DNA from: a virus
Virus record (IMG/VR): IMGVR_UViG_3300048924_000100
Coordinates: 62,001-126,000 of that record
Reading direction: 5' to 3' (one strand)
Length of the DNA stretch: 64,000 nucleotides
Made by a program: the position numbers and the translations under genes
Shown here: piece after piece, positions 25,918 to 64,000 of the stretch
How positions within the stretch are numbered: position 1 is the first letter of the stretch
Layout: every line of letters begins with the position of its first letter
Notes under the pieces: generated by a model
What the model saw: only the letters and a program-made list of their open reading frames with translations
Database searches by the model: none
What the model was told of the DNA's origin: nothing

Positions 25918-28900
25918 ATGGAAACAGTTGACAGTGACAACACGGCAAAAGACAGTACGTTAAAGTTTGCAAAAGAGTTGATGAACTACCTGGGTGCACA
26001 GAACCTCCCCAAGGAACTTATCGACGACCGCAAGAAACGAGTGGACTGGGAGAAGCGCACTGATGATGAGTTGGTCATGGCGCACTTCGACGAAGACAGC
26101 TTGTCCAAGATCAAGACGGTTCGTTTCCTCAAGGACTTTGCCCGCTACAAAGCACAGCCTGACCGTACTACCAAGAACACCAGCTTCTTGCGGACAGCAG
26201 AGATCTTCCGTCAGCAGGGGATCAAGAACTACTACTTCCTCCTGCAACTGAACAACCCGGCTTTGATCGGGGTAGACCCGTATGACGAGAACTTGACCAA
26301 CGAACAGAAGGTCATGATCATGCACGAATCGGAGACCAACTTCTGGTACTTCCTTCGTGAGGTGTGTAAGCTCCGGGCTGACCGTCAGTTCTTAGCGAAC
26401 CGGGGTAACATCAGTTTCATCTGGAACTACCTGAACCACATTACCCAGTACATGATCATGCCTCGTCAGCAGGGCAAGTATCAGGATGACAACAACAAGG
26501 TTCGTATCGCTACGGCTAACGGTAAGGTGAACGAGCCTAAGGACGCCTGGGTACGTATTGGTGACCTTAAAGCGGGTGATGAGGTTATCGACCGTTATGG
26601 CAAGAAGTGTACAGTTATCGGTATCCATCCTCAGGGTATCAAACGACTGTACCGGGTTTACGCCAGCGATGGTCGTTATGTGGACGCGGGCCCTGAGCAC
26701 CTCTGGACGCTGGCTGACCACAGCCGTAAGGTGAACGATGATCCGATCTGGGATGACTACACCACTGCAGAGATGATTGACAAGCTCAAGTCTGATGTGA
26801 TCCTTGAGTTTCCGTTGATCGAAGCCGAACAAGGGGTTGCTAAAACCCTGGCGATTGATCCGTATGTGATGGGTACCTTGATTGGTGGCCAACGTATCGG
26901 TGGGTTCATTCTGATCAAGAAGGTTTCTGAAGCGGCTGATGCTTGGATTGAAGAGAACCTGCCTGAAGGTCTTGAGCTGGTTAAGAAGGGCAATCGTCGT
27001 GAGATCCATTCGACAGACGAGAATGTCAAGATTACCTTCGATCCAGACATGGGTGTGCCGTCGCACTACCTGGAAGGTGCTCTGTCAGATCGCCTGGCGC
27101 TCCTACAAGCGTTTCTGGACCAAGGAGCCATCGGTGAGGAGGGTGTGGTCTACAACACCACTAGCAGGCTTGTAGGCGGTCATGTTCAATACCTGGCGCG
27201 TGGCTTGGGTGGTACTGCTTCCAAATCGAGTAACAAGATCACCGTAACCCTGCCGCATTCGATGGCGTTGTTTAAGTACAAGCATGTCGAGGACGAGTTC
27301 GTTTATCAGAACCAACTGTTTGTGGAACGCATCGAGTATCAGGGCGAAGCACCTTGCACCTGCATCGAGGTCGACAACGAGGATCACCTCTACGTCACTG
27401 ATGACTTCCTGGTCACTCACAACACCGTGTCGGTACAGGTTATTGCTTTCTGGCTGACGTACATCATGGGTCGGGGCTACAAGTCTCACCTGGTAACGCT
27501 GAAGTCGGATAACCGGGCTCAGTTCATTGACGCAATCAAGAAGATCCGAACGTGTCTGCCGAAGTACCTGGTTAACCCAACTTGGAAGGACAAGGATGCG
27601 GGTAACTACCTGACGTATAAAGCGTTTGGGGAGGAGCACGTGAACACCCTGACCATCTCAGTACCCCAGATGGGCGAAGACGCCGCAGGCGACCTTGGAC
27701 GGGGTCTCACGGTAGGTACCACGAACTACGACGAGCCAGGTTACATCAACTGGATCGAGGCGATCATCAACGGATGCTCTCCTTCTGCTTTGACAGAGAT
27801 GGAGATTTGTCGTGACAGCGGCATTCCTTACGGGATCAGTTATATCACGACACCGAATACGACCCTGCATCCAAGTGGTGCATTCATGTTCGAGAAGTTG
27901 ATGACATCGACCGAGTGGCGTGAGAAGTTCTTCGACTCGTACAGCGAAAGTCATCTGAAGATGCGCTTGCTTAAAGCCTCTCCGAAGAAGACCACCTCGC
28001 CTTCTGTGGCCCTTGTGTATAACTACCTGCAACTGGGTAAAGACAAGGCCTGGGTACGGGAGACTATCGACAGCCTCAACCTCAGCCTTGCTAAGGCGAA
28101 GATCGACTTGCTCCTCATGTGGGTTGAAGACGGTGAGAACCGTGTGTTCGACGACGTGACGCGTGAAGCGATTAACAACGTTAAGCGGGATAAGGTTTGG
28201 AGTAAGGAGTATCGTGACACGGGTCTGTTTATCGACTTCTTTGTCACGCAGCAAGAACTGCTAGAGATGGCGAAGAAGAGTTATAATGACTTCTTCCTCA
28301 TTGGGGTGGATACCTCGTCGGCTATCAACAAGGATGCCTGTACGCTGATCATCCGCAGTATCAAGACCGGTAAGGTCATTGGGGTGGGTCGTTATCAGTT
28401 GGCGTTCCTGGATGACGTGACGGGCATTATCGTCGACATGCTGACTACCTTCGAGAACAGCCTGTTGGTGATTGAGCGCAACTATGCTCACCACATGATC
28501 GACAACCTGCTGGTGATGCTGCCAGCTAAAGGGATGGATCCATTCACTCGAATCTACAACACGGTCTTCCAAGATCCTGTTAACCATTCGAAGGAATATG
28601 AGGCAGTTCAGAACACCAAGTTTGCTCACCGCAGTAAAAGCTTCTACCTGAAGTACAAACAGTTCTTCGGGTTCGTCACCACCCAGACATCGCGTCAAGT
28701 GCTGTACGGGCTGATTCAGGAAGCTGTGGGTAACACGGGGTATGGTCTGAACTACGACAGGCTTGCTGACGAGCTTATCAACCTCAAGACGCGGGGCGAT
28801 CGAATCGACCACGATAGCAAACAGCACGATGACTTGGTTATCGCCTGGTTGTTGACTTACTGGTTTATCAAGCTGGGGCAGAACAAGCCGATGTACGGGA

Positions 28901-29211
28901 TTCCTACCGGGATTGCGTTGTCGGAAACTCGTAACCTGCTGGACGCTGGTAAGAACCGCAATGCTCCTGAAGTCGATCCAAGTATTGTCTCGTTTATGGA
29001 CAACATCAGGAAGCGTGTACAGAAGCTTACAGATGAGTTGTTGAACACCAACGACAACATCCTGGCCATGCGACTGGAAGCCGAGATCAACAAGCTCAGC
29101 AAACTGCTTCCGGTTGAGACGGCTAAACTTCTTACCGTGGATACCTTAATCGAAACAGCTAAGCTTGAGCGTGCCAAGCGGATGCTCAGAGAACGTAAAC
29201 GTGCTGCGTAA
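25918..29211 (+). CDS. Terminase large subunit (phiKZ gp25-like), interrupted by an in-frame intein
   Basis: 1097 codons; removal of the 315-aa intein (residues 188-502) leaves 782 aa. The ATPase P-loop reads PRQQGK (182-187), and the next extein residue is T503, which restores GKT. A YDEPG segment shortly after is the likely Walker B. The C-terminal RNase H-like nuclease shows GVDTSS with D798, VIERN and HDDLVIAW, the three acidic positions expected for metal binding. The enzyme pumps DNA into the prohead and cuts it. It is followed by a PL7-like gene. The upstream region 25870-25917 is AT-rich (TTATATTTATTTTTTGATAT) and may hold a promoter. Confidence 0.93.
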   Translation: METVDSDNTAKDSTLKFAKELMNYLGAQNLPKELIDDRKKRVDWEKRTDDELVMAHFDEDSLSKIKTVRFLKDFARYKAQPDRTTKNTSFLRTAEIFRQQGIKNYYFLLQLNNPALIGVDPYDENLTNEQKVMIMHESETNFWYFLREVCKLRADRQFLANRGNISFIWNYLNHITQYMIMPRQQGKYQDDNNKVRIATANGKVNEPKDAWVRIGDLKAGDEVIDRYGKKCTVIGIHPQGIKRLYRVYASDGRYVDAGPEHLWTLADHSRKVNDDPIWDDYTTAEMIDKLKSDVILEFPLIEAEQGVAKTLAIDPYVMGTLIGGQRIGGFILIKKVSEAADAWIEENLPEGLELVKKGNRREIHSTDENVKITFDPDMGVPSHYLEGALSDRLALLQAFLDQGAIGEEGVVYNTTSRLVGGHVQYLARGLGGTASKSSNKITVTLPHSMALFKYKHVEDEFVYQNQLFVERIEYQGEAPCTCIEVDNEDHLYVTDDFLVTHNTVSVQVIAFWLTYIMGRGYKSHLVTLKSDNRAQFIDAIKKIRTCLPKYLVNPTWKDKDAGNYLTYKAFGEEHVNTLTISVPQMGEDAAGDLGRGLTVGTTNYDEPGYINWIEAIINGCSPSALTEMEICRDSGIPYGISYITTPNTTLHPSGAFMFEKLMTSTEWREKFFDSYSESHLKMRLLKASPKKTTSPSVALVYNYLQLGKDKAWVRETIDSLNLSLAKAKIDLLLMWVEDGENRVFDDVTREAINNVKRDKVWSKEYRDTGLFIDFFVTQQELLEMAKKSYNDFFLIGVDTSSAINKDACTLIIRSIKTGKVIGVGRYQLAFLDDVTGIIVDMLTTFENSLLVIERNYAHHMIDNLLVMLPAKGMDPFTRIYNTVFQDPVNHSKEYEAVQNTKFAHRSKSFYLKYKQFFGFVTTQTSRQVLYGLIQEAVGNTGYGLNYDRLADELINLKTRGDRIDHDSKQHDDLVIAWLLTYWFIKLGQNKPMYGIPTGIALSETRNLLDAGKNRNAPEVDPSIVSFMDNIRKRVQKLTDELLNTNDNILAMRLEAEINKLSKLLPVETAKLLTVDTLIETAKLERAKRMLRERKRAA
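26479..27423 (+). mobile_element. Class-3-type intein in the terminase P-loop, with decayed homing endonuclease domain
   Basis: The 315-aa insert lies exactly between K187 and T503 of GK^T. The first residue is Tyr, not Cys/Ser/Ala. Block A-like DAWVRIGDLKAGDEV is present. Block B reads GPEHLW with Trp at the class 3 position; block F reads TCIEVDNEDHLYVTDDFLV, and block G ends VTHN followed by Thr. This is the WCT set of class 3 inteins, which use the block F Cys as nucleophile. The middle has LAGLIDADG-like remnants (YVMGTLIGGQR and LLQAFLDQGAIG), but both catalytic acidic residues appear lost or shifted, so homing activity is probably gone. Confidence 0.9.
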
Positions 29212-35040: not shown

Positions 35041-35227
35041 ATCTCCTATGCTATGTGAACTCGTGAGTTTGCTCCTGCTTGAAGATAGTTAGCCCTGGCG
35101 TCCCCGTGGGAATAGTTTGGAGTCCCTACCCACATCAGTCAGTCGTCCCCCATTAACGATTGGCTGTCCCGGCAAAGCATCGCTGGGAAAAGCTCCACCT
35201 GCCAACTTAGTCTCATCGTGTCCGGAC

Positions 35228-35280
35228 ATCCCACTGTGGTGTCCGGATGCGGTGGGATTATTTCGCATTTTGTTTTTTGT
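35228..35280 (+). terminator. Terminator-like hairpin after the HslV-like pair
   Basis: ATCCCAC (35228-35234) pairs with GTGGGAT (35252-35258), followed by TATTTCGCATTTTGTTTTTTG. Confidence 0.6.
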
Positions 35281-35424
35281 TACCGGATGGATATATTTTA
35301 TACTTGCACACGTCTTTCGGTTTTTCTCATAGCTGGGTTTTCCGATGATGTGGATTGGAGGTGGGTCCTACTGTCCTTCGGTTAGCAGGTGCTTCTCTCA
35401 CAGGTGCAGCCTTTCTGAGGACAT

Positions 35425-35483
35425 CCCCTGTTGCGGAGTTTCTTGGGCATGCCAAGCACTCTACTTGCGACAGGGGTTATTTT
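35425..35483 (+). terminator. Nested terminator-like hairpin upstream of PhuZ
   Basis: CCCCTGTTGC (35425-35434) pairs with GCGACAGGGG (35467-35476) with one G-U pair; an inner stem CTTGG/CCAAG sits at 35442-35456; TTATTTTTC follows. Confidence 0.65.
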
Positions 35484-35541
35484 TCATCTGTGGATAGATT
35501 CTTGGGCGATGTAGGCAATGGGTTGAAGTCATGTAAAAAGA

Positions 35542-35559
35542 TTTCAAGCCTACATTACT
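35542..35559 (+). promoter_or_regulatory. Early promoter upstream of PhuZ, ATTTCAAGCCTACATTACT box
   Basis: Matches the window early consensus with TACATTACT in the core. About 64 nt upstream of the PhuZ ATG. Confidence 0.78.
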
Positions 35560-35622
35560 AACACGTTGACCCAATTGGTCTAACGAATTCTTTCAACTGG
35601 TAACTCAAAGAGAACATTTCAC

Positions 35623-36621
35623 ATGAATGCAAATACTTCGGATCTGGCATACTTCCTCTGCGGTGGTACCGGTATTAACATCGGCGTGGCTCTGAAAAAG
35701 GGTACTCACACCGACAACAACAAAAACGCTTTCTTCGTCGGTCTGGATTCCTCGGATCGTAACAGCTCCGGCGACTTGTTCGAAGTTGTGCAGATGGCCG
35801 TTGCCAACGACCCTGACCAGAAGGCCAAGGGTTCGGGTAAAGTCAAAGCAACCAACTACCCACAAGCTGAACAGTTCATCAACCAGTTCCTGACCAAGCA
35901 CAAGCCACGTGATTACAACATCATCGTCTGCTCCACCGGCGGTGGTACTGGTTCGATGCTGGCTTTCGTTCTGGCGCGCATGCTGTTCGAACGCGATCAA
36001 CTGGTCGTGCTGTGCTTCATCAACGACAAGACCTCGCAGGTTGAAGAGATCAACGTCGTGAACAGCTACCGTTCGTACGCGTCGCTGACCACTCCTGGTT
36101 CGCTGAACCGCGTGGTTCCGTACATGGAGTTCGACAACACCCTGACCAACACTCGTGGTGAAGTCAACCAAATGGTCATCGACAAGCTCGATGTGGCCAG
36201 CCTGTTCCTGAGCAACGTCAACAAGGAACAAGACCACACTGACATGAAGAACCTGCTGAACTTCAGCAAGCACTACGGCGTTCCACCGTCCATGTCGCGT
36301 ATTCGCTTCTACGACGAGAAAGGTGTTGCAGACTTCAAGGGCAAGGTGCCGGTTGCAGTCTCTTCCCTGTTCGAAAGCAGCGATGCAGTCATCCCACGTT
36401 TCAACGGCACCGTGATCCGTTCCACCGGCGTGTTCGCTGACGGCGTTAAGCGTCCAAGCAACGCCCAGGAACTGCACATGGTCCTGGACCACGGCGAAGC
36501 TCTGAAAGAGCTGGAGAAACACATCGAAGCAATGGAAACCCGCAAGGTTGAAACTTCGTCGACCTTCACCCAGCAGAAAGATCTCTCTGCCGGTGCGGAT
36601 GACAAAGGCTTCTTCATGTAA
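35623..36621 (+). CDS. phuZ: PhuZ, phage tubulin/FtsZ-like GTPase
   Basis: 332 aa, near the usual ~315-325. The tubulin signature loop reads STGGGTGSM at residues 104-112 (tubulin GGGTGSG), with a T1-type loop CGGTGINIG near residues 13-21. PhuZ polymerises into a bipolar spindle that centres and rotates the phage nucleus and carries capsids to it. The C-terminal ~25 residues are a flexible tail as in known PhuZ proteins. C-ending codon bias and the early promoter at 35542 fit early, abundant expression. A terminator follows at 36641. Confidence 0.95.
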   Translation: MNANTSDLAYFLCGGTGINIGVALKKGTHTDNNKNAFFVGLDSSDRNSSGDLFEVVQMAVANDPDQKAKGSGKVKATNYPQAEQFINQFLTKHKPRDYNIIVCSTGGGTGSMLAFVLARMLFERDQLVVLCFINDKTSQVEEINVVNSYRSYASLTTPGSLNRVVPYMEFDNTLTNTRGEVNQMVIDKLDVASLFLSNVNKEQDHTDMKNLLNFSKHYGVPPSMSRIRFYDEKGVADFKGKVPVAVSSLFESSDAVIPRFNGTVIRSTGVFADGVKRPSNAQELHMVLDHGEALKELEKHIEAMETRKVETSSTFTQQKDLSAGADDKGFFM

Positions 36622-43485: not shown

Positions 43486-43789
43486 AGTAGTTATCCGAAA
43501 CAAATGATGGGGATGTAAGAATAAAGTATTACTGCAATCTCCTATCTTATGTGAACAAGTCACATCAGAGGAAGTGTCCTCTACTGGGGACCATTGCGCA
43601 ATTCGAGAATTAGTGATATGATTAGAAGTTGATTACTCTATATCATCCCTGCTGAAAAGTAGGGTGATTTCAGTGGGGTAAGAAAATTTCAAACCCATAT
43701 TACCAATGTGATTAGTAATACAGATGTTCCACATCGGTAAAGATAATCACGCTATAGCAAACTATCTTCGTACACAAGGAAAACAACTC
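43486..43789. promoter_or_regulatory. Divergent control region upstream of chimallin
   Basis: A 304-nt gap without a gene. It contains the AATCTCCTATCTTATGTGAAC motif (43536-43556; 19 of 21 nt as at 35040), overlapping a dyad ATGTGA-acaag-TCACAT, a GC-poor stretch, and the early promoter at 43687. Confidence 0.65.
43687..43704 (+). promoter_or_regulatory. Early promoter of the chimallin gene, ATTTCAAACCCATATTACC box
   Basis: Matches the early consensus; followed by AATGTGATTA, shared with the promoter at 14826. About 86 nt upstream of ATG 43790. Confidence 0.78.
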
Positions 43790-45808
43790 ATGAGTCTGAA
43801 TAACGGTTCCGAAAGCACCTCCTGGAACGAAAACAACGAAAAGCCGAACTCCAATCAGGCTCCAGGCGCCTCGGGCACCATGGCTCCTCTGGACGGTCTG
43901 GCTGGTCTGCTGCGTCTGCCGTCGATGACGAGCGATAACCGCAACCTGAAAGAGGTTAGCGAAACCATCGAGAAACTCGAGGCGATCTACGAGAACGCCA
44001 AGAAATCCACCACCAACGAACTCCAGCGCAAAATCGTTCCGACGGTTGAAATGCTGACTCCGTCCATCTCGGCTCAACTGCCAGGTGTCGGCCTGTACGT
44101 CGTCTTCGACGGCACCATGTACGTGATGGCTGCTCTGTTCTACAACCGCACGCTGAGCATCGGCGTAGAGCGCATCACCGTCAACACCAACAACATCGTC
44201 CAGCAGATGTCCGCGCCACTGACTCCAGCTCAGTACCCGAACAGCCTGTTCCTGGAAAAGCTGACCTCGCACTACACCAAGGTTGCCGAAGCCCTGGGCG
44301 TGAAGAACGTCAGCGTGATCAACATGATCGTTTGCGATCTGGAAATGCTGCACCACGCAGAAGCCGGCGATCCGAAAGACTACGCCCACCGTCAGGCGAA
44401 CTACATCGCCTCCGAGTGGGAAGAAGCGATCATGGTCAAGACCGTGCGCGAAATCGTGGGCAAGGGCTACCAAGTTCCGGTTCCGTTCGCTACTCCTGAT
44501 CAGCCGTACGGCAAAGATGGCTGCGCCGAAGCTCGCGTTAACGCAATCGCTTTCCGCACCAGCAAGGCCGGCACTCTGACTCCGGACAACATGGAAGTTA
44601 TTGTTAGCACCATCAACAATAACAACCAGAACACCGGCAACTTCCAGGCCAACTCGAAAGAGCTGATCCGGGTTACTGGTGCGGTCAGCCTGAACGGCGT
44701 GTCGTGGGAAGATCACCAGCGTTTCATGATGTCGCACCGCTCGCAAGAGCAAATGAACTCGCTGCAACAGTTCCTCGGCAACAGCATGGGCATGGGCGCA
44801 TACCCACAAGGCTTCAAGCCACTGCGTCCAGTTATCACCATCGGCACCGTGCAAGCTGGTGAGCAACTGTGCAACAACGGCGGCCTGTTCCCGTTCTTCA
44901 GCGGCCTGTACGCGCTGATGGCGACGAACAACCAGTACGTCTGGTCTGAAGCTCTGCGTCGTCACTCGGTAGGTGCTCGTGGTAACCTGGCCGACCTGGA
45001 AACTCGTGTTGATCAAATGGTCAGCCAGATCCCAGGCGGTTTCCAGAACCCACAACGCATCCGCCTCGACGAGAAGAAGATGTCGGACACCGAGCTGGTT
45101 AACAACTGGATTCGCCAGAACGTTAGCCCGCACGCAACCTTCCAGATCAACCTGATCCCGGCAGGTCCGAACGCGTCCATCAACAACTTCTTCTTCCAGC
45201 TGGCCAAGGTCGGTCAGAACGCCGCTGAAATCAAGGTAGTCATCGCTCTGATCGACTCCATGACCAAAGGCGCGTTCTCGGAAGTGATCCGCGGCAACGT
45301 TACCTCGCAACAAGGTTGGGTGCCTTCCAAGCCAGTGCTGATCCCGACTGGCATGATCGCAGTCAACGGCATGGCTGAATACGCCGGCAAGAAGTTCAAC
45401 ACCCAGGAACTGGACGAGATGATGATCTCGCACATCAAGGGCCCGAAAGGTCAGCTCGCAGCCGAAAGCCTGCTGTCGACCATGTACGGCACCATCCCGG
45501 GTGAGGAATTTAAACAGCGGGCACAAAAGCTGCGCGTGGAAACCTCGTCGTCGCTGTTCGACGGTCAGGTTCACATCAACGGCTGGGCTCAGCCTCACAT
45601 CTGGGCGCCTGACTTCATGGCCGCCATGTCGAAAGCCATGGACACCATCGGTCAGCTGAACGTTGCCAACAACCTGGGCAGCTGGCGCAACACCAGCCTG
45701 GCTTCGACGCCTGGCATCGGTCTGGCTACCCTCGTGGGCGCTGGTTCGAACAACGCGACCGGCAACGGTCTCGGTGTTGCATACAACATGAACATGCCAT
45801 TCATGTAA
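43790..45808 (+). CDS. chmA: Nuclear shell protein chimallin (phiKZ gp54-like)
   Basis: 672 aa; ATG 43790 has AAGGAAA upstream. The protein has a low-complexity, probably disordered N-terminus (~40 aa, Ser/Asn/Pro-rich) and a Gly/Asn/Met-rich C-terminus, with a large folded centre and no enzyme motif. Known shell proteins (631 aa in 201phi2-1 gp105) have flexible terminal segments that link subunits into the nuclear lattice. The call rests on the early promoter, the strongest codon bias in the window, size, and position directly upstream of the beta-prime N-half gene, the phiKZ gp54-gp55 order. Chimallin is among the most abundant early phage proteins and encloses the replicating DNA. Confidence 0.82.
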   Translation: MSLNNGSESTSWNENNEKPNSNQAPGASGTMAPLDGLAGLLRLPSMTSDNRNLKEVSETIEKLEAIYENAKKSTTNELQRKIVPTVEMLTPSISAQLPGVGLYVVFDGTMYVMAALFYNRTLSIGVERITVNTNNIVQQMSAPLTPAQYPNSLFLEKLTSHYTKVAEALGVKNVSVINMIVCDLEMLHHAEAGDPKDYAHRQANYIASEWEEAIMVKTVREIVGKGYQVPVPFATPDQPYGKDGCAEARVNAIAFRTSKAGTLTPDNMEVIVSTINNNNQNTGNFQANSKELIRVTGAVSLNGVSWEDHQRFMMSHRSQEQMNSLQQFLGNSMGMGAYPQGFKPLRPVITIGTVQAGEQLCNNGGLFPFFSGLYALMATNNQYVWSEALRRHSVGARGNLADLETRVDQMVSQIPGGFQNPQRIRLDEKKMSDTELVNNWIRQNVSPHATFQINLIPAGPNASINNFFFQLAKVGQNAAEIKVVIALIDSMTKGAFSEVIRGNVTSQQGWVPSKPVLIPTGMIAVNGMAEYAGKKFNTQELDEMMISHIKGPKGQLAAESLLSTMYGTIPGEEFKQRAQKLRVETSSSLFDGQVHINGWAQPHIWAPDFMAAMSKAMDTIGQLNVANNLGSWRNTSLASTPGIGLATLVGAGSNNATGNGLGVAYNMNMPFM

Positions 45809-57892: not shown

Positions 57893-60169
57893 GTGAGTAA
57901 GAAAGAGATAGATTCTCCTGTCGTGGTACCTGAGGTAGGATTGGGAAGATTCAAGAAATGGGCCTACCTCGGCGAAAACCAACTGCACCCAGCGGTAATG
58001 GGTGTTTGTGCAAACTTGGTTGTGTTCCCATGGGTATCGTCACCTACCCGTATTTACATGGTGGGCAACATGATCCCGAAGTCGGTTGTTACTTCGGGTG
58101 CCAGTGAGCGCAAACTCAAAACCGGTAACGAATACCAGTACGCCGAAACAACTCGCTGCATCAAAGCACCATCGAACATGATCATCGAGGAAATCTTCTA
58201 CGCTCAGTCCATCAGTGGCGGGGAAGGTGACACCGATAAATGGGCTCCGGTGTATGTGGTGTTCCGTAACGAGGAAAAGGGCAAGTACGATATCCTGGAA
58301 TTCCCACGGTATAACGTACAGAACTCTTACGTCGGGTTCGAATATGTCTACGACATGAACGTCATGCGCAAACTGCGTAAAGGCGCTGTGTTCGCTAAAG
58401 GTACCATCTTCGCCAAGTCACCTCGCGTCAGTAAAGATGGCGAGTGGATGTTCGGTATGGACCTCAAGGTTGCGCCAGCTTCCTTCCACTATACCGAGGA
58501 GGACGGCATCGGCATCACTGAGACCTGTGCGCGTGAGAAACTGCGTTGCATGTTTGAACATGTGCGTGCTCACGGTTGGAACGAAGACGAGTGGATCCCT
58601 CTGACACTGTACGGAGAGAACCCATTCCCACAGAGTGGCGAACGTATTCGTGAAGACGGTATCGTCATGGGTTTCCGTCGTCGTATCTCTGCTAACGCTC
58701 TGGTGTCGTTGACCAAGAAAGCTTTGACCATCCCTGATGAAACACACGACATCCTGTTCAGGGCGCCGGTGGATTCTGAAGTGATGTCTGTTGAAGTCAT
58801 TTCTGAACGCATGAAGAACAAGGCGAACAACCGTTCGACTGATTACATCAAACAGGCCCACACCAATATGCTGGAGCGTTATGAACGCCGCCAGAATGAC
58901 ATGTGGAACGAGGTGATCCGTTGGCACAGTGGTCGCGTAGCGGCTAACCGTGGTAACGACATTGCCATGACCCGTCCTCTGAATCGGTTCATCCGCTTCG
59001 CTAAGGGCAACTTCACGATCAACCCTAACACCGGTAAGCCTAACCCGCTGTTCCGTGCAGTCAAGCGCGTACGCGTTAAAGACTGGAGTGTTACCATCCG
59101 CCTGCGTGAGATCGTTTCTGGTCGTGCCAAGTTCAAGATGTCCGGCATGAACGGGGACAAAGGTGTAATCGTTCGGATTATTCCAGACGAAGATGCACCG
59201 CGTTATGATGACGGTACTGTGTGTGACGTGGTTGTTAACAACACACCAGCCTTCCGTCGTCAGATCTTCTCGATGCTGATGGAACAGTCGATCAACTTCA
59301 TTAACATTAATATCCACAAAGAAGTGGTGCAATGTCATAAAGAAGGCGACTACGTAACAGCAATGGAAAAGCTGATGCTGTTCTACGAGACTGGGTTCCC
59401 AGAGTTCGCAGAGCTGGTACAGCAGACCATGGTGACCCGCGAGGACATCGTCGAGTACGTCAACGAGATCGTGGCTACTCAGATCAGTGTGCATGTGCGC
59501 AGCGACACCAAGCTGTATGGCGTTGAGATTATCAAAGCCTTGCGTAAGGTCTACAGCTACAAGCCAGAGCACATCACCTTCCGGGATTCCCTCGGTGAGA
59601 TGGTGCGGTCGGTTAACCCGGTACTGATCACCCACCAGCACTTCATGCTGTTGGACAAGTTCGGTACTGACATGTCGGCTCAGTCGCTGCCAATGTCTAA
59701 CCCGTTCGGTATGCCAGCCAAACTTAACGAAGCCAACAAGTACTCCAGTTGGTTGCGGATGGTCTGGAACCGTAACAAGGGTGAAACGGAAGCACGTCTG
59801 TCACTCAGTCAGACTGGGGCAAAGGAAACGGTCAAGCAATTGGCCATGGGTTACGCTCCTGAACTCCGTACGCGGATGGCACAGCGTATTGTTCGGGCTG
59901 ACGATGGGTTTAACATCAACCAGATCATCAAGCCTGAAGAGTATGGGTTGAACCGGGCAGTGCAAATGTCGCAGAGCATGCTCAGTGACTCCGGTTATAC
60001 CTTGCGTCGTGAACTGCCAACGGATCGTTCTGATTATGAGGCGCCTGACGTAATGATCCCGCGTGAACGTATGGACGAACCTTTGGCGGGTGGCAAGACT
60101 GTTAACCCAGCCGGGCTCCGAGCAGATGATGAGTTCGAGAAAGAGTTTTTGCATAAGGAGATTGTGTAA
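57893..60169 (+). CDS. RNA polymerase beta subunit, C-terminal half (non-virion RNAP, phiKZ gp71-73-like)
   Basis: 758 aa; GTG 57893 follows TAGGAGAAAGC. Residues 406-435 read RLREIVSGRAKFKMSGMNGDKGVIV, the beta motif 'GDKxxGRHGxKG' region that holds the active-site lysines (K416 and K423 equivalents), then a PDEDAP segment for the 'PxxDMPY' motif. Phylogenetically split beta subunits of this kind are specific to phiKZ-like phages. It joins directly to the beta-prime C-half gene (start codon overlaps the stop by one base). In phiKZ this position is gp71-73; no intron is visible here. Confidence 0.88.
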   Translation: MSKKEIDSPVVVPEVGLGRFKKWAYLGENQLHPAVMGVCANLVVFPWVSSPTRIYMVGNMIPKSVVTSGASERKLKTGNEYQYAETTRCIKAPSNMIIEEIFYAQSISGGEGDTDKWAPVYVVFRNEEKGKYDILEFPRYNVQNSYVGFEYVYDMNVMRKLRKGAVFAKGTIFAKSPRVSKDGEWMFGMDLKVAPASFHYTEEDGIGITETCAREKLRCMFEHVRAHGWNEDEWIPLTLYGENPFPQSGERIREDGIVMGFRRRISANALVSLTKKALTIPDETHDILFRAPVDSEVMSVEVISERMKNKANNRSTDYIKQAHTNMLERYERRQNDMWNEVIRWHSGRVAANRGNDIAMTRPLNRFIRFAKGNFTINPNTGKPNPLFRAVKRVRVKDWSVTIRLREIVSGRAKFKMSGMNGDKGVIVRIIPDEDAPRYDDGTVCDVVVNNTPAFRRQIFSMLMEQSINFININIHKEVVQCHKEGDYVTAMEKLMLFYETGFPEFAELVQQTMVTREDIVEYVNEIVATQISVHVRSDTKLYGVEIIKALRKVYSYKPEHITFRDSLGEMVRSVNPVLITHQHFMLLDKFGTDMSAQSLPMSNPFGMPAKLNEANKYSSWLRMVWNRNKGETEARLSLSQTGAKETVKQLAMGYAPELRTRMAQRIVRADDGFNINQIIKPEEYGLNRAVQMSQSMLSDSGYTLRRELPTDRSDYEAPDVMIPRERMDEPLAGGKTVNPAGLRADDEFEKEFLHKEIV

Positions 60170-62163
60170 TGGCCTTGCAAATTAGTCTACGGGAGTTTGC
60201 CAACCTGCCTGAACACCAGGTACTGCGTTGGCGCGGTTTCCGTATGGCCGTTGAGGTCACGGACGACCACGGTGAGAAAGTAAAGAGTGACACCTATGCC
60301 ATGCTGTTGACTTGGCAAGGTATGATGATCCACCGAGCTTACAACGATGTACCGTACTCGGTGAAAGAGATCATCCCCACCGGCAAGAGCGTCGTGTATA
60401 ACAACAAGACGCTCGCCATTCCAATGAACTGGATCATGGGAGAGATTGGTCCTAACATCCACGATCCAGTGGCGTGGGATGCAATCAAGATGACCATTCA
60501 CATGTGGCAGACCAAGTTGAATAACTTGATCGTAGTCATGAGTGAGACGTCGGTCATCTCTGCCATGGCGGAGTCGGTAGACGACCTGATTGAAGATCCG
60601 GGTATCCGCGAGATCCATCGCAAGGTACTGGATAAGGAAGTCACGATCGACGAAGGTGAGGACTTGTTCTCGGACTACCTCAAGACGTCTGAGACGTTGG
60701 ATTACAACACGGTAGCTCTGTTGGCACGTACTGGTGGCGTGAGTATCAACCAGGCTTATCAGACGGCGATCATTCGAGGGGCAGTATTCGACCTCGATAA
60801 CACCATTATGCCAAACGCTGTAATGGCGCGCTACGCTGATGGTGTAACCAACTTGGCAGATGCCATTGGCGATAACCGTGGTGCAGGTAAGGCACTGAAC
60901 AGTAACGGCCGTGCACTGAAAGACTCGGAATGGTTTCACCGGAAGATTCACTTGTTCACGGCGATCATCCATTCCATCAATCACATGCACGACTGTGGCT
61001 CGCTTGACACCGTGCCTGCGCGCATTGCGTCGACTGAGATGGCCAAGAGCCTGCTCGGCAAGTATCGCGTCCTAGACGACGGTACAGTTGATCTGATCAG
61101 CGTTAGAAACGTTAAGACGATCAAAGCCGGCGATCTGGTTAACCTACGCAGTGTGGCGTTCTGTAACAGTCCTCTGGGTACTCCGTGTGGCGTTTGTTAC
61201 GGATCGATGAAGTCTGCGATCCCGTACAACCGGATGATGAAGAAAGATGCAAACGTTGGTATGTTTGCTGGCACCACGATCTGTAACCCATTGGGTCAGA
61301 AAATGTTGTCAACCAAACACTTCATCCGAAACGCTACCAGTAAGAAGTTCGTACCACACCACCGCGACAAGGAGATCATCAATTCCAACGGTGACCAGAT
61401 CTTCCTTGACAAAGATCTGTGTAAGGAGGGCACGCGACTGATTCTCCGGTCAACCATTGTGAAAGATTTGTCTGACTTGCGTTCCTTGGACATCATGGAC
61501 GAGATCGCGCTCAGCAAGTTGCCTTACTTTGGTGAAGTGACCTTCCAGTATGAGGTGGAAGACATTATGGTGGGCGGTACCACCACGCAGCAACACCCCG
61601 CACAGACCTCGGTATCTTCTCGCCGTGCCCGCTTTTCTATGGGATTTCTCCAGTATATACTGGACCATGGCTGGACCATGCAGGACAAGAAGTTCATCTC
61701 AGTGGACCTCTCCAAGTGGAACAGCAAAGACCCGATGTTCGTGTTGCCCTATGTTCGTGAGGACTTGGACGCACACCGTGCTCGGGTGGAAAACTTCCTT
61801 ACGTTCAACAAACGTAATGCGGCGTGGAAGAAACAGGTCGTTACTCCTAAAGTCTTCGGCGAAGTACTTGCGGAGTTCTGGACGTTGATCGATGCTGAAA
61901 CTAAAGGCATCAACATGATTTACGTCGAGGTCATTCTGGCCTGTGCACTGACCAAGAATCCAGCAGGGCATTCGTACAAGCTGGCAACGGGTCCTGGTGA
62001 GAAATACTTCACCAGCTTTGTAACTTGCGTGGACAACCGTGGTTCGGGAACAACGGCAATCTTTGAACGCCAGCAGAACATCCTGAACCTTCCGAAAACC
62101 TTCGCGGTTAAAGACCGTCAATCAAGTGTACTGGAATGTTTCCTCCAGCATGCGGTGTCATAA
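60169..62163 (+). CDS. RNA polymerase beta-prime subunit, C-terminal half (non-virion RNAP, phiKZ gp74-like)
   Basis: 664 aa; ATG 60169 overlaps the preceding TAA. Cys332, Cys340 and Cys343 in CNSPLGTPCGVCYGS match the second beta-prime zinc cluster (E. coli CxTDxGVCxxCYG). NVGMFAGTTICNPLGQKMLSTKHF (split here as NVGMFAG, then CNPLGQKMLSTKHF) is the 'xVGxxAxxxxGEPGTQxTxRxFH' trigger-loop region, with the Glu and first Gly changed. Together with 45902 and 57893 most of the non-virion RNAP is in this window; only the beta N-half (gp123-type) is missing, unless 3-4139 is that part. Confidence 0.88.
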   Translation: MALQISLREFANLPEHQVLRWRGFRMAVEVTDDHGEKVKSDTYAMLLTWQGMMIHRAYNDVPYSVKEIIPTGKSVVYNNKTLAIPMNWIMGEIGPNIHDPVAWDAIKMTIHMWQTKLNNLIVVMSETSVISAMAESVDDLIEDPGIREIHRKVLDKEVTIDEGEDLFSDYLKTSETLDYNTVALLARTGGVSINQAYQTAIIRGAVFDLDNTIMPNAVMARYADGVTNLADAIGDNRGAGKALNSNGRALKDSEWFHRKIHLFTAIIHSINHMHDCGSLDTVPARIASTEMAKSLLGKYRVLDDGTVDLISVRNVKTIKAGDLVNLRSVAFCNSPLGTPCGVCYGSMKSAIPYNRMMKKDANVGMFAGTTICNPLGQKMLSTKHFIRNATSKKFVPHHRDKEIINSNGDQIFLDKDLCKEGTRLILRSTIVKDLSDLRSLDIMDEIALSKLPYFGEVTFQYEVEDIMVGGTTTQQHPAQTSVSSRRARFSMGFLQYILDHGWTMQDKKFISVDLSKWNSKDPMFVLPYVREDLDAHRARVENFLTFNKRNAAWKKQVVTPKVFGEVLAEFWTLIDAETKGINMIYVEVILACALTKNPAGHSYKLATGPGEKYFTSFVTCVDNRGSGTTAIFERQQNILNLPKTFAVKDRQSSVLECFLQHAVS

Positions 62164-62180: not shown

Positions 62181-62212
62181 GGGGGACTTCGGTCCCCCTT
62201 TAATGTTTTTGA
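62181..62212 (+). terminator. Intrinsic terminator with UUCG loop
   Basis: GGGGGAC (62181-62187), TTCG, GTCCCCC (62192-62198), followed by TTTAATGTTTTT. Confidence 0.85.
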
Positions 62213-62223
62213 GGCTTTTTGGT

Positions 62224-64000
62224 ATGAGGCATTCCGCCACTTTATCCTCAGGTCACACCTACCTGCGTATCTTTGGGTATTACGGCGATTTCTGTGCAAA
62301 GGTTATTATTCCTTTCTGCCGTGCTCATTTGTACAAGACTGGTAAGGTTCCATTGCCGGGCACCAATAAACAGGTGTGGAAAGTGACTCACGTGTTCGCT
62401 CAGTCTAACCACGACAAAACTGAGTACCGAATTCCTGTTAGTTTAATGAAAGAGTTCCTGGAGTTTGCACAGTACCGGGGCTACAATACTGCTCGTATTG
62501 CTATTGAAACAGAACCTGAGATCGAAGGCGTAGACTGCGAGTTCGAGTTACGTCCCGAAATGTCCACACCTCTGGCTGAACAAGAGGAATGGATTGAGTA
62601 CCAGTTAGCAGAAGGTGCGATCAAGATCAACAACGCCCCTACAGGCGGTGGTAAGGCTCTGGCTAACGATACACCGGTTAGAACTGTACACGGCTGGCGC
62701 CCTATTGGTCAGATCAAGGTTAACGATCTGGTCATGGCTCCTGACGGCTCCCACACGTACGTTACAGGCGTTTTCCCACAAGGCAAGACCAAGACCTTCC
62801 GTCTGACGTTTGAAGACGGCAGGAACGTTGTAGCGTGCCCTGAGCATCAATGGGAAGTGCGTGCTGAAGGCGAGACCGAATGGCAGGTATTGACAACACA
62901 GCAGTTAGTGGACAGTCAGAAGAATTGGCAGATTCCGCTGACCGCCAGTGAACGCAATGTCGATCGTGGTGATATCATCGATTCTTACTTAATCGGTAAG
63001 ACAGATCGTATCCTGGGTGAGAAGTATCTAGAAGGTTCCCATTCACAACGGATGGGGTTAATACGCGGCTTACTGGATAACACCGGTGAACCACAGCCTG
63101 ATGGATCGATCATCTTCCGGACTGAATACGGTATAACAGCCAAGATGGTTCGTGATCTGGTCCGCAGTATCGGTGGTATCGCCAAGGCAAAGTTTGAAAA
63201 CTTCAACAACGTGGTCTGGATTAAACACCGAACTCCAGAGATCCTGTTTACTGATGAGGACAAGGTAGACAAGCTGTGTGGGAGTGAGAACCGTGACCTG
63301 GGACTGAAGATCTCGGCTATTGTACCTGCCCTGCCCACACATACCACTTGCATCGCTGTAGAACACCCGTCACACTGTTTTGTGATCAAGGACTACCTGG
63401 TCACCCACAACACCTACATGAGCCTCTATACTGCCGTTAAGCTCGGTAAGCGGATCCTCATTACAGTGCAGCCACGTTACATCACCACCTGGATCAACGA
63501 CATCGAGAAAACGTTGATCGTCAAACCAGGCGATATCGTGGTGTGGGAGAACACGTCATTGCCATTACTGGGAGAGAACATCGAGAAGGGACTCATTAAT
63601 CCCAAGATCGTTATCGTTCCGTTCTCCCGGATCTCGGGGTACTTGCGCAATAGTCGTAAGGATCCAACCGCAGTACCGCTTGGCAAGATCTTTGAACAGA
63701 TCAACCCGGGTCTCCGTATTGTGGACGAGGGACATGAATCGTTCCACGAGATCTGTCTGTCACTGTTCCATGGCAACGTTAAGAAGTTGATTACCAACTC
63801 GGCTACATTGAGTGGTGATGATCCATTCATGAACCGGATGTACAACTTGATGCTGCCAATCAGTCTCAGGCTTAAAGAACCTGATCCTGAGAACTACATT
63901 GACATTGTCGCTTACATGTATCACTTGTGTCAGCGCAAGTTCTTCTTGAAGACAATGCAGTTCGGCAGCTACAACGACATGGCGTTGGAGGCGTCCATTC
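62224..64000 (+). CDS. SF2 helicase (phiKZ gp75/UvsW-like), interrupted by an intein; 3' partial
   Basis: The frame is open to the right edge of the window, at least 592 codons. ATG 62224 has TTGAGGC upstream. The extein begins with ~100 residues of beta-rich accessory domain, then motif I: PTGGGK (residues 139-144) joins T397 across the intein. Motif II is DEGH at 501-504 (nt 63724-63735), after the Walker-like VKLGKRILITVQP strand. DEGH and the T4 UvsW/Hel-type layout suggest a branch-migrating or ATP-dependent DNA helicase. Its position after gp74 matches phiKZ gp75. Confidence 0.85.
   Translation, partial: MRHSATLSSGHTYLRIFGYYGDFCAKVIIPFCRAHLYKTGKVPLPGTNKQVWKVTHVFAQSNHDKTEYRIPVSLMKEFLEFAQYRGYNTARIAIETEPEIEGVDCEFELRPEMSTPLAEQEEWIEYQLAEGAIKINNAPTGGGKALANDTPVRTVHGWRPIGQIKVNDLVMAPDGSHTYVTGVFPQGKTKTFRLTFEDGRNVVACPEHQWEVRAEGETEWQVLTTQQLVDSQKNWQIPLTASERNVDRGDIIDSYLIGKTDRILGEKYLEGSHSQRMGLIRGLLDNTGEPQPDGSIIFRTEYGITAKMVRDLVRSIGGIAKAKFENFNNVVWIKHRTPEILFTDEDKVDKLCGSENRDLGLKISAIVPALPTHTTCIAVEHPSHCFVIKDYLVTHNTYMSLYTAVKLGKRILITVQPRYITTWINDIEKTLIVKPGDIVVWENTSLPLLGENIEKGLINPKIVIVPFSRISGYLRNSRKDPTAVPLGKIFEQINPGLRIVDEGHESFHEICLSLFHGNVKKLITNSATLSGDDPFMNRMYNLMLPISLRLKEPDPENYIDIVAYMYHLCQRKFFLKTMQFGSYNDMALEASI
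62656..63411 (+). mobile_element. Class-3-type intein in the helicase P-loop
   Basis: 252 aa inserted between K144 and T397 of GK^T. The N-terminal residue is Ala. Block A-like ALANDTPVRTVHGWRPIGQI is present; block B reads CPEHQWEV with Trp in the class 3 position, block F reads TTCIAVEHPSHCFVIKDYLV, and block G is VTHN followed by Thr. The middle retains LAGLIDADG-type remnants (SYLIGK and LIRGLLDNTG) without the catalytic acids. It differs from the terminase intein at most positions, so it is not a recent copy. Confidence 0.88.

Follow-up and report, generated by a model that had tools for sequence, protein, structure and literature searches.

The large terminase (TerL) gene of a giant phage related to Pseudomonas phage EL is interrupted inside its Walker A motif, and we conclude with high confidence that the interrupting element is a class 3 intein, placed between the Lys and the Thr of the motif, which would be removed by class 3 splicing, whose endonuclease is probably non-homing, and which appears to be inherited vertically. 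Class 3 is a rarer class of intein. The window that we analyzed is a stretch of 64,000 nucleotides (positions 62001-126000 of a 214,198-base virus record), and all positions below refer to it unless another record is named. The gene and its parts are as follows:

25918-29211, + strand: large terminase precursor gene, intein included; an ORF of 1097 aa without the stop, matching phrog_2 (1.3e-40)
25918-26478, + strand: N-extein, residues 1-187, ending ...PRQQGK, the Walker A motif as far as its Lys
26479-27423, + strand: intein assigned to class 3 on sequence and predicted fold, Tyr1 to Asn315 (315 aa), with empty sites in four relatives
27424-27426, + strand: the +1 Thr (Thr503 of the precursor), putative downstream nucleophile and Walker A Thr
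27424-29211, + strand: C-extein, the remainder of the terminase ATPase and nuclease

The nearest named relative of the 1097-aa protein is the phage EL terminase, which is 64.5% identical over its length. In the Walker A loop, Lys187 and Thr503 flank the in-frame insert, with the junctions PRQQGK^YQDDNNK and VTHN^TVSVQ. The terminases of four homologous phages, VP4B, pTD1, Kc263 and Sureiya, have an uninterrupted PRQ[QS]GKTV at this point, and both boundaries are therefore fixed without recourse to any intein model. Apart from the insert, which N1M2 has and Sureiya lacks, the terminases of these two phages are nearly identical. An in-frame insert of 315 residues at GK^T, as proposed in the first-pass annotation, is thus borne out, and its boundaries are exact.

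The residues expected of a class 3 intein were then compared across 47 terminases with an insert at the same GK^T site, among which there are 39 distinct inteins:

26698-26706, + strand: block B His74-Leu75-Trp76, containing the W of the WCT triad; His and Trp invariant (39/39)
27361-27363, + strand: block F Cys295, the C of the triad and proposed first nucleophile; invariant (39/39) and matched in alignment by the class 3 Cys of both 6rix and 6bs8
27415-27423, + strand: block G Thr313-His314-Asn315, of which Thr313 is the T of the triad; invariant (39/39)

Tyr1, Trp76, Cys295 and the +1 Thr, all of which had been picked out from the window sequence, are present, as are His74, Thr313, His314 and Asn315. 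Only 18 of the 315 sites are invariant in the 39 inteins, and the six class 3 catalytic residues (His74, Trp76, Cys295, Thr313, His314 and Asn315) are all among them (hypergeometric ~1.4e-8), so that a chance origin of the signature can be rejected. Residue 1, by contrast with these, takes ten identities (Tyr, Gln, Leu, Met, Glu, Asp, Ala, Gly, Phe and Pro), and Cys, Ser or Thr occurs there in none of the 39. In terms of the intein blocks, we find a site that is empty in homologues, a non-nucleophilic residue 1, His at B:10 and Trp at B:12, Cys at F:4, Thr at G:5 followed by His-Asn, and a nucleophilic +1 residue (Thr). One reading of these residues has to be corrected: the T of the triad had been assigned to the +1 Thr, which is a separate, downstream nucleophile. 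In the Mycobacterium smegmatis DnaBi1 intein the triad is Trp67-Cys118-Thr137, with Thr137 directly before His138-Asn139 (PMC6195587), and block G:5 likewise defines the Thr elsewhere (PMC5050341). Because the published class 3 structures place the T in block G before His-Asn, its counterpart in the terminase intein is Thr313.

Profile scores and the predicted structure agree with this assignment. Compared as a single sequence with solved structures, the intein matches best the class 3 DnaB inteins from M. chimaera (6rix, 6riy) and M. smegmatis (6bs8), and its Trp and Cys align with theirs. The family profile scores the WCT-grafted gp41-1 intein (6riz; C1A, F65W, D107C) at 42.7 bits and native gp41-1 (6qaz) at 30.8; since the two proteins are otherwise nearly identical, the 12-bit gain indicates that the profile favors the class 3 version. 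An AlphaFold model of the intein, based on 28 aligned viral inteins, has a mean pLDDT of 93.9 and predicts a Hint (horseshoe) domain with an inserted LAGLIDADG fold. Foldseek ranks PI-SceI and other endonuclease-bearing inteins first, the class 3 DnaB inteins next (TM-score 0.72-0.79, normalized by the length of the DnaB intein), and I-DmoI, which matches the inserted domain, further down. Family-wide conservation, profile scores and predicted fold thus join the sequence itself in supporting a class 3 intein, and they also favor the block F Cys as first nucleophile, as the first-pass annotation had it, in a splicing reaction that we infer.

If the terminase intein behaves like the class 3 inteins that have been studied, Cys295 would attack the Lys187-Tyr1 peptide bond and form a block F branched thioester, from which the N-extein would be transferred to the hydroxyl of the +1 Thr. 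Asn315 would then cyclize, aided by His314, and an O-N shift would rebuild GKT. After splicing the +1 Thr would serve as the Walker A Thr, and a working P-loop is expected in spliced TerL only. As Lys and Thr stand 315 residues apart in the unspliced precursor, it is a sound inference that the precursor lacks a usable P-loop.

The domain inserted in the Hint fold bears on how the intein persists:

26800-27297, + strand: LAGLIDADG domain, probably catalytically dead, limits approximate (intein residues 108-273), with fold matches to PI-SceI and I-DmoI and its acids lost
26887-26889, + strand: Gly137, at the position of the first LAGLIDADG Asp in intact relatives
27121-27126, + strand: Gln215-Gly216, at the position of the second LAGLIDADG Asp in intact relatives

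The model retains the fold of an active LAGLIDADG enzyme, but the acid at the end of each LAGLIDADG helix is replaced (by Gly at the first, by Gln or Gly at the second). Of 32 distinct EL-clade sequences, none has the second acid and a single one has an Asp aligned at the first position, with no shared replacement, whereas the acids (LGDG and DTDG types) are intact in the majority of the relatives from Klebsiella and Aeromonas phages. The endonuclease of the terminase intein is therefore probably dead and its homing lost, as judged from these residues. All 36 EL-clade viral contigs recovered by an extein-based search have the insert, and at the level of the clade the tree of the inteins agrees with that of the exteins. 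Given the lost acids, the insert in 36 of 36 contigs and the congruent trees, the EL-clade intein appears to be passed on vertically, without ongoing homing; it would be kept in this way because nothing but a precise, in-frame deletion would remove it from an essential gene. The two trees disagree locally among the nearest relatives of the window (L033/L060), which points to some exchange of inteins between phages. Compared with its closest terminase relative (L060), the window has a dN of 0.28 in the dead endonuclease region (26800-27297) and of 0.02-0.05 in the exteins, a contrast that suggests a swap of intein alleles between phages.

Purifying selection acts on the splicing (Hint) parts about as strongly as on the exteins. 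The dN/dS of the relic domain among close relatives, ~0.15-0.19, exceeds that of the splicing parts and the exteins two- to threefold yet lies well under 1. The values are rough since dS is near saturation; read with this caution, they do not support neutral decay of the relic. The simplest reading of purifying selection on a dead domain is structural constraint, because an essential protein would be lost if the insert misfolded.

Retention without homing could instead mean that the intein is useful. The first-pass annotation had proposed that packaging is gated on intein removal, and the anatomical part of this proposal stands, in that the precursor Walker A is unusable; a regulated gate, in which conditional splicing (for example, under redox control by Cys293/Cys295 of the CTC motif) times the packaging ATPase, is unsupported, and we consider it improbable. 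The EL clade does retain the intein universally without a working endonuclease, and the class 3 M. smegmatis DnaB intein is redox-sensitive via a second Cys (PMC6195587). However, Cys293, the other Cys in the CTC motif, is present in 24 of the 39 inteins and Cys44 in 5, so that conservation does not support redox gating via either residue, and the regulatory Cys48 of the M. smegmatis intein has no counterpart in the terminase intein in the structure-sequence match alignment. Moreover, the closely related phages VP4B, pTD1 and Sureiya live without the intein, and the difficulty of exact deletion explains its retention equally well. A broader form of the idea, that the dead intein or the inert LAGLIDADG domain benefits EL-like phages through splicing-timed packaging or DNA binding by the precursor, seems to us unlikely to a similar degree: it is based on universal retention together with purifying selection, and structural constraint plus hard exact deletion account for both just as well.

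That the homing endonuclease is still active, via altered catalytic residues, is more doubtful still. The LAGLIDADG domain is predicted to be well folded and is under purifying selection, as described above, but the absence of the second acid in 32/32 and of the first in 31/32 EL-clade sequences, with no common replacement, argues against activity, as does vertical inheritance. A class 1 or class 2 intein, with another boundary or another chemistry, has very little probability in our view. In its favor is a weak match (E 0.85) to TIGR01443, which is a general model of intein C termini. Pfam and NCBIfam searches returned no model at its cut-off, a point against the class 3 assignment. Class 1 is rejected on residue 1, which is never Cys or Ser, and class 2 on the presence and invariance of Cys295 and Trp76, while the empty-site homologues fix both boundaries and rule out different ones. 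Finally, we give almost no credence to a decayed, non-splicing insert that leaves TerL broken or functional unspliced, since, although the endonuclease half is dead and at least one class 3 intein gene has been titled a pseudogene (Arthrobacter Arth_1007, PMC3196547), the splicing residues are all intact, the Hint part is constrained about as strongly as the exteins, and the Walker A motif of an essential enzyme would stay split.

The class 3 terminase intein is a known kind of element, and the same arrangement exists in phage EL. Phage EL gp011 (NC_007623) and other EL-like phages carry a terminase intein at the same GK^T with the WCT residues and with the endonuclease acids lost, and the tree places these inteins as orthologues of the one in the window. 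The EL intein is ~44% identical to it and has Gln as residue 1. At the terminase gene, the public EL record has no intein annotation. The InBase list names inteins of phiEL ORF11, ORF39 and ORF40; the papers searched that use the name phiEL do not mention inteins. Tori and Perler 2011 is central to work on phage class 3 inteins. Class 3 terminase inteins are common in EL-like and other phages. Klebsiella, Aeromonas and Serratia-related giant phages (phiKp_32, AerS_266, N1M2, ZPAH34) have them at the same site with the WCT residues, but, unlike the window intein, these keep the LAGLIDADG acids and are distributed patchily between close relatives, N1M2 being full and Sureiya empty. The terminase intein of the T4-like phage ECD7 likewise ends in THN^T. 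The DnaB inteins of M. smegmatis (6bs8) and M. chimaera (6rix) share the WCT residues, the Hint fold and insertion in the P-loop after GK (PMC6195587, PMC7664689), but they are mini-inteins without an endonuclease domain, have a +1 Ser and reside in a host helicase. Mycobacteriophages have already been described as having class 3 inteins in their terminases, and P-loop insertion is likewise on record for terminase inteins, with known sites in TerL1 (PMC5050341). Those inteins belong to other phages and are distant in sequence (~25-28% identity).

Two further class 3 inteins are present in the genome, both between the P-loop Lys and Thr of helicases:

62656-63411, + strand: second class 3 intein (252 aa), a separate element at GGGK^T of a helicase, with Ala1, EHQW, TTC and THN^T
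C1, ~35221-36006, outside the window, - strand: third class 3 intein, at GSGK^T of another helicase; the EL counterpart is gp166

The helicase gene hosting the second intein starts at 62203 and extends past the end of the window, and the LAGLIDADG motifs of this intein are also degenerate. EL has both helicase inteins and one more in the RNA polymerase subunit gene gp039 (L021:8709-11819), a class 3 element at GKA^..HN^S whose LAGLIDADG motifs are intact; the gp039 orthologue in the window (60169-62163) is empty at that point, with the junction near 60894/60895. RisingSun (record G015) shows the terminase intein only. Elsewhere in the window, 43724-45808 strongly matches the phage nuclear shell protein family (phrog_4795), and the phage therefore probably builds a phage nucleus.

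Public records call terminases and helicases alike "DarB-like antirestriction" (L010, L016, L017, L019, L099, L100), labels that probably stem from the shared intein. The record of Raoultella phage VB_ZK_P1 (L020:1-2852) starts within the TerL intein, which is why its terminase is annotated as truncated, without the N-extein. For annotators, the warning is that shared inteins appear to pass wrong product names between terminases and helicases. Our analysis adds a clean, well-bounded family of class 3 inteins in giant-phage terminases, with 39 distinct members in which the catalytic residues are invariant and residue 1 is free to vary. The persistence of endonuclease-dead inteins, set against a related intein with intact motifs that is present in EL but not in the phage studied here, makes the question of why inteins outlast their homing enzyme a testable one.
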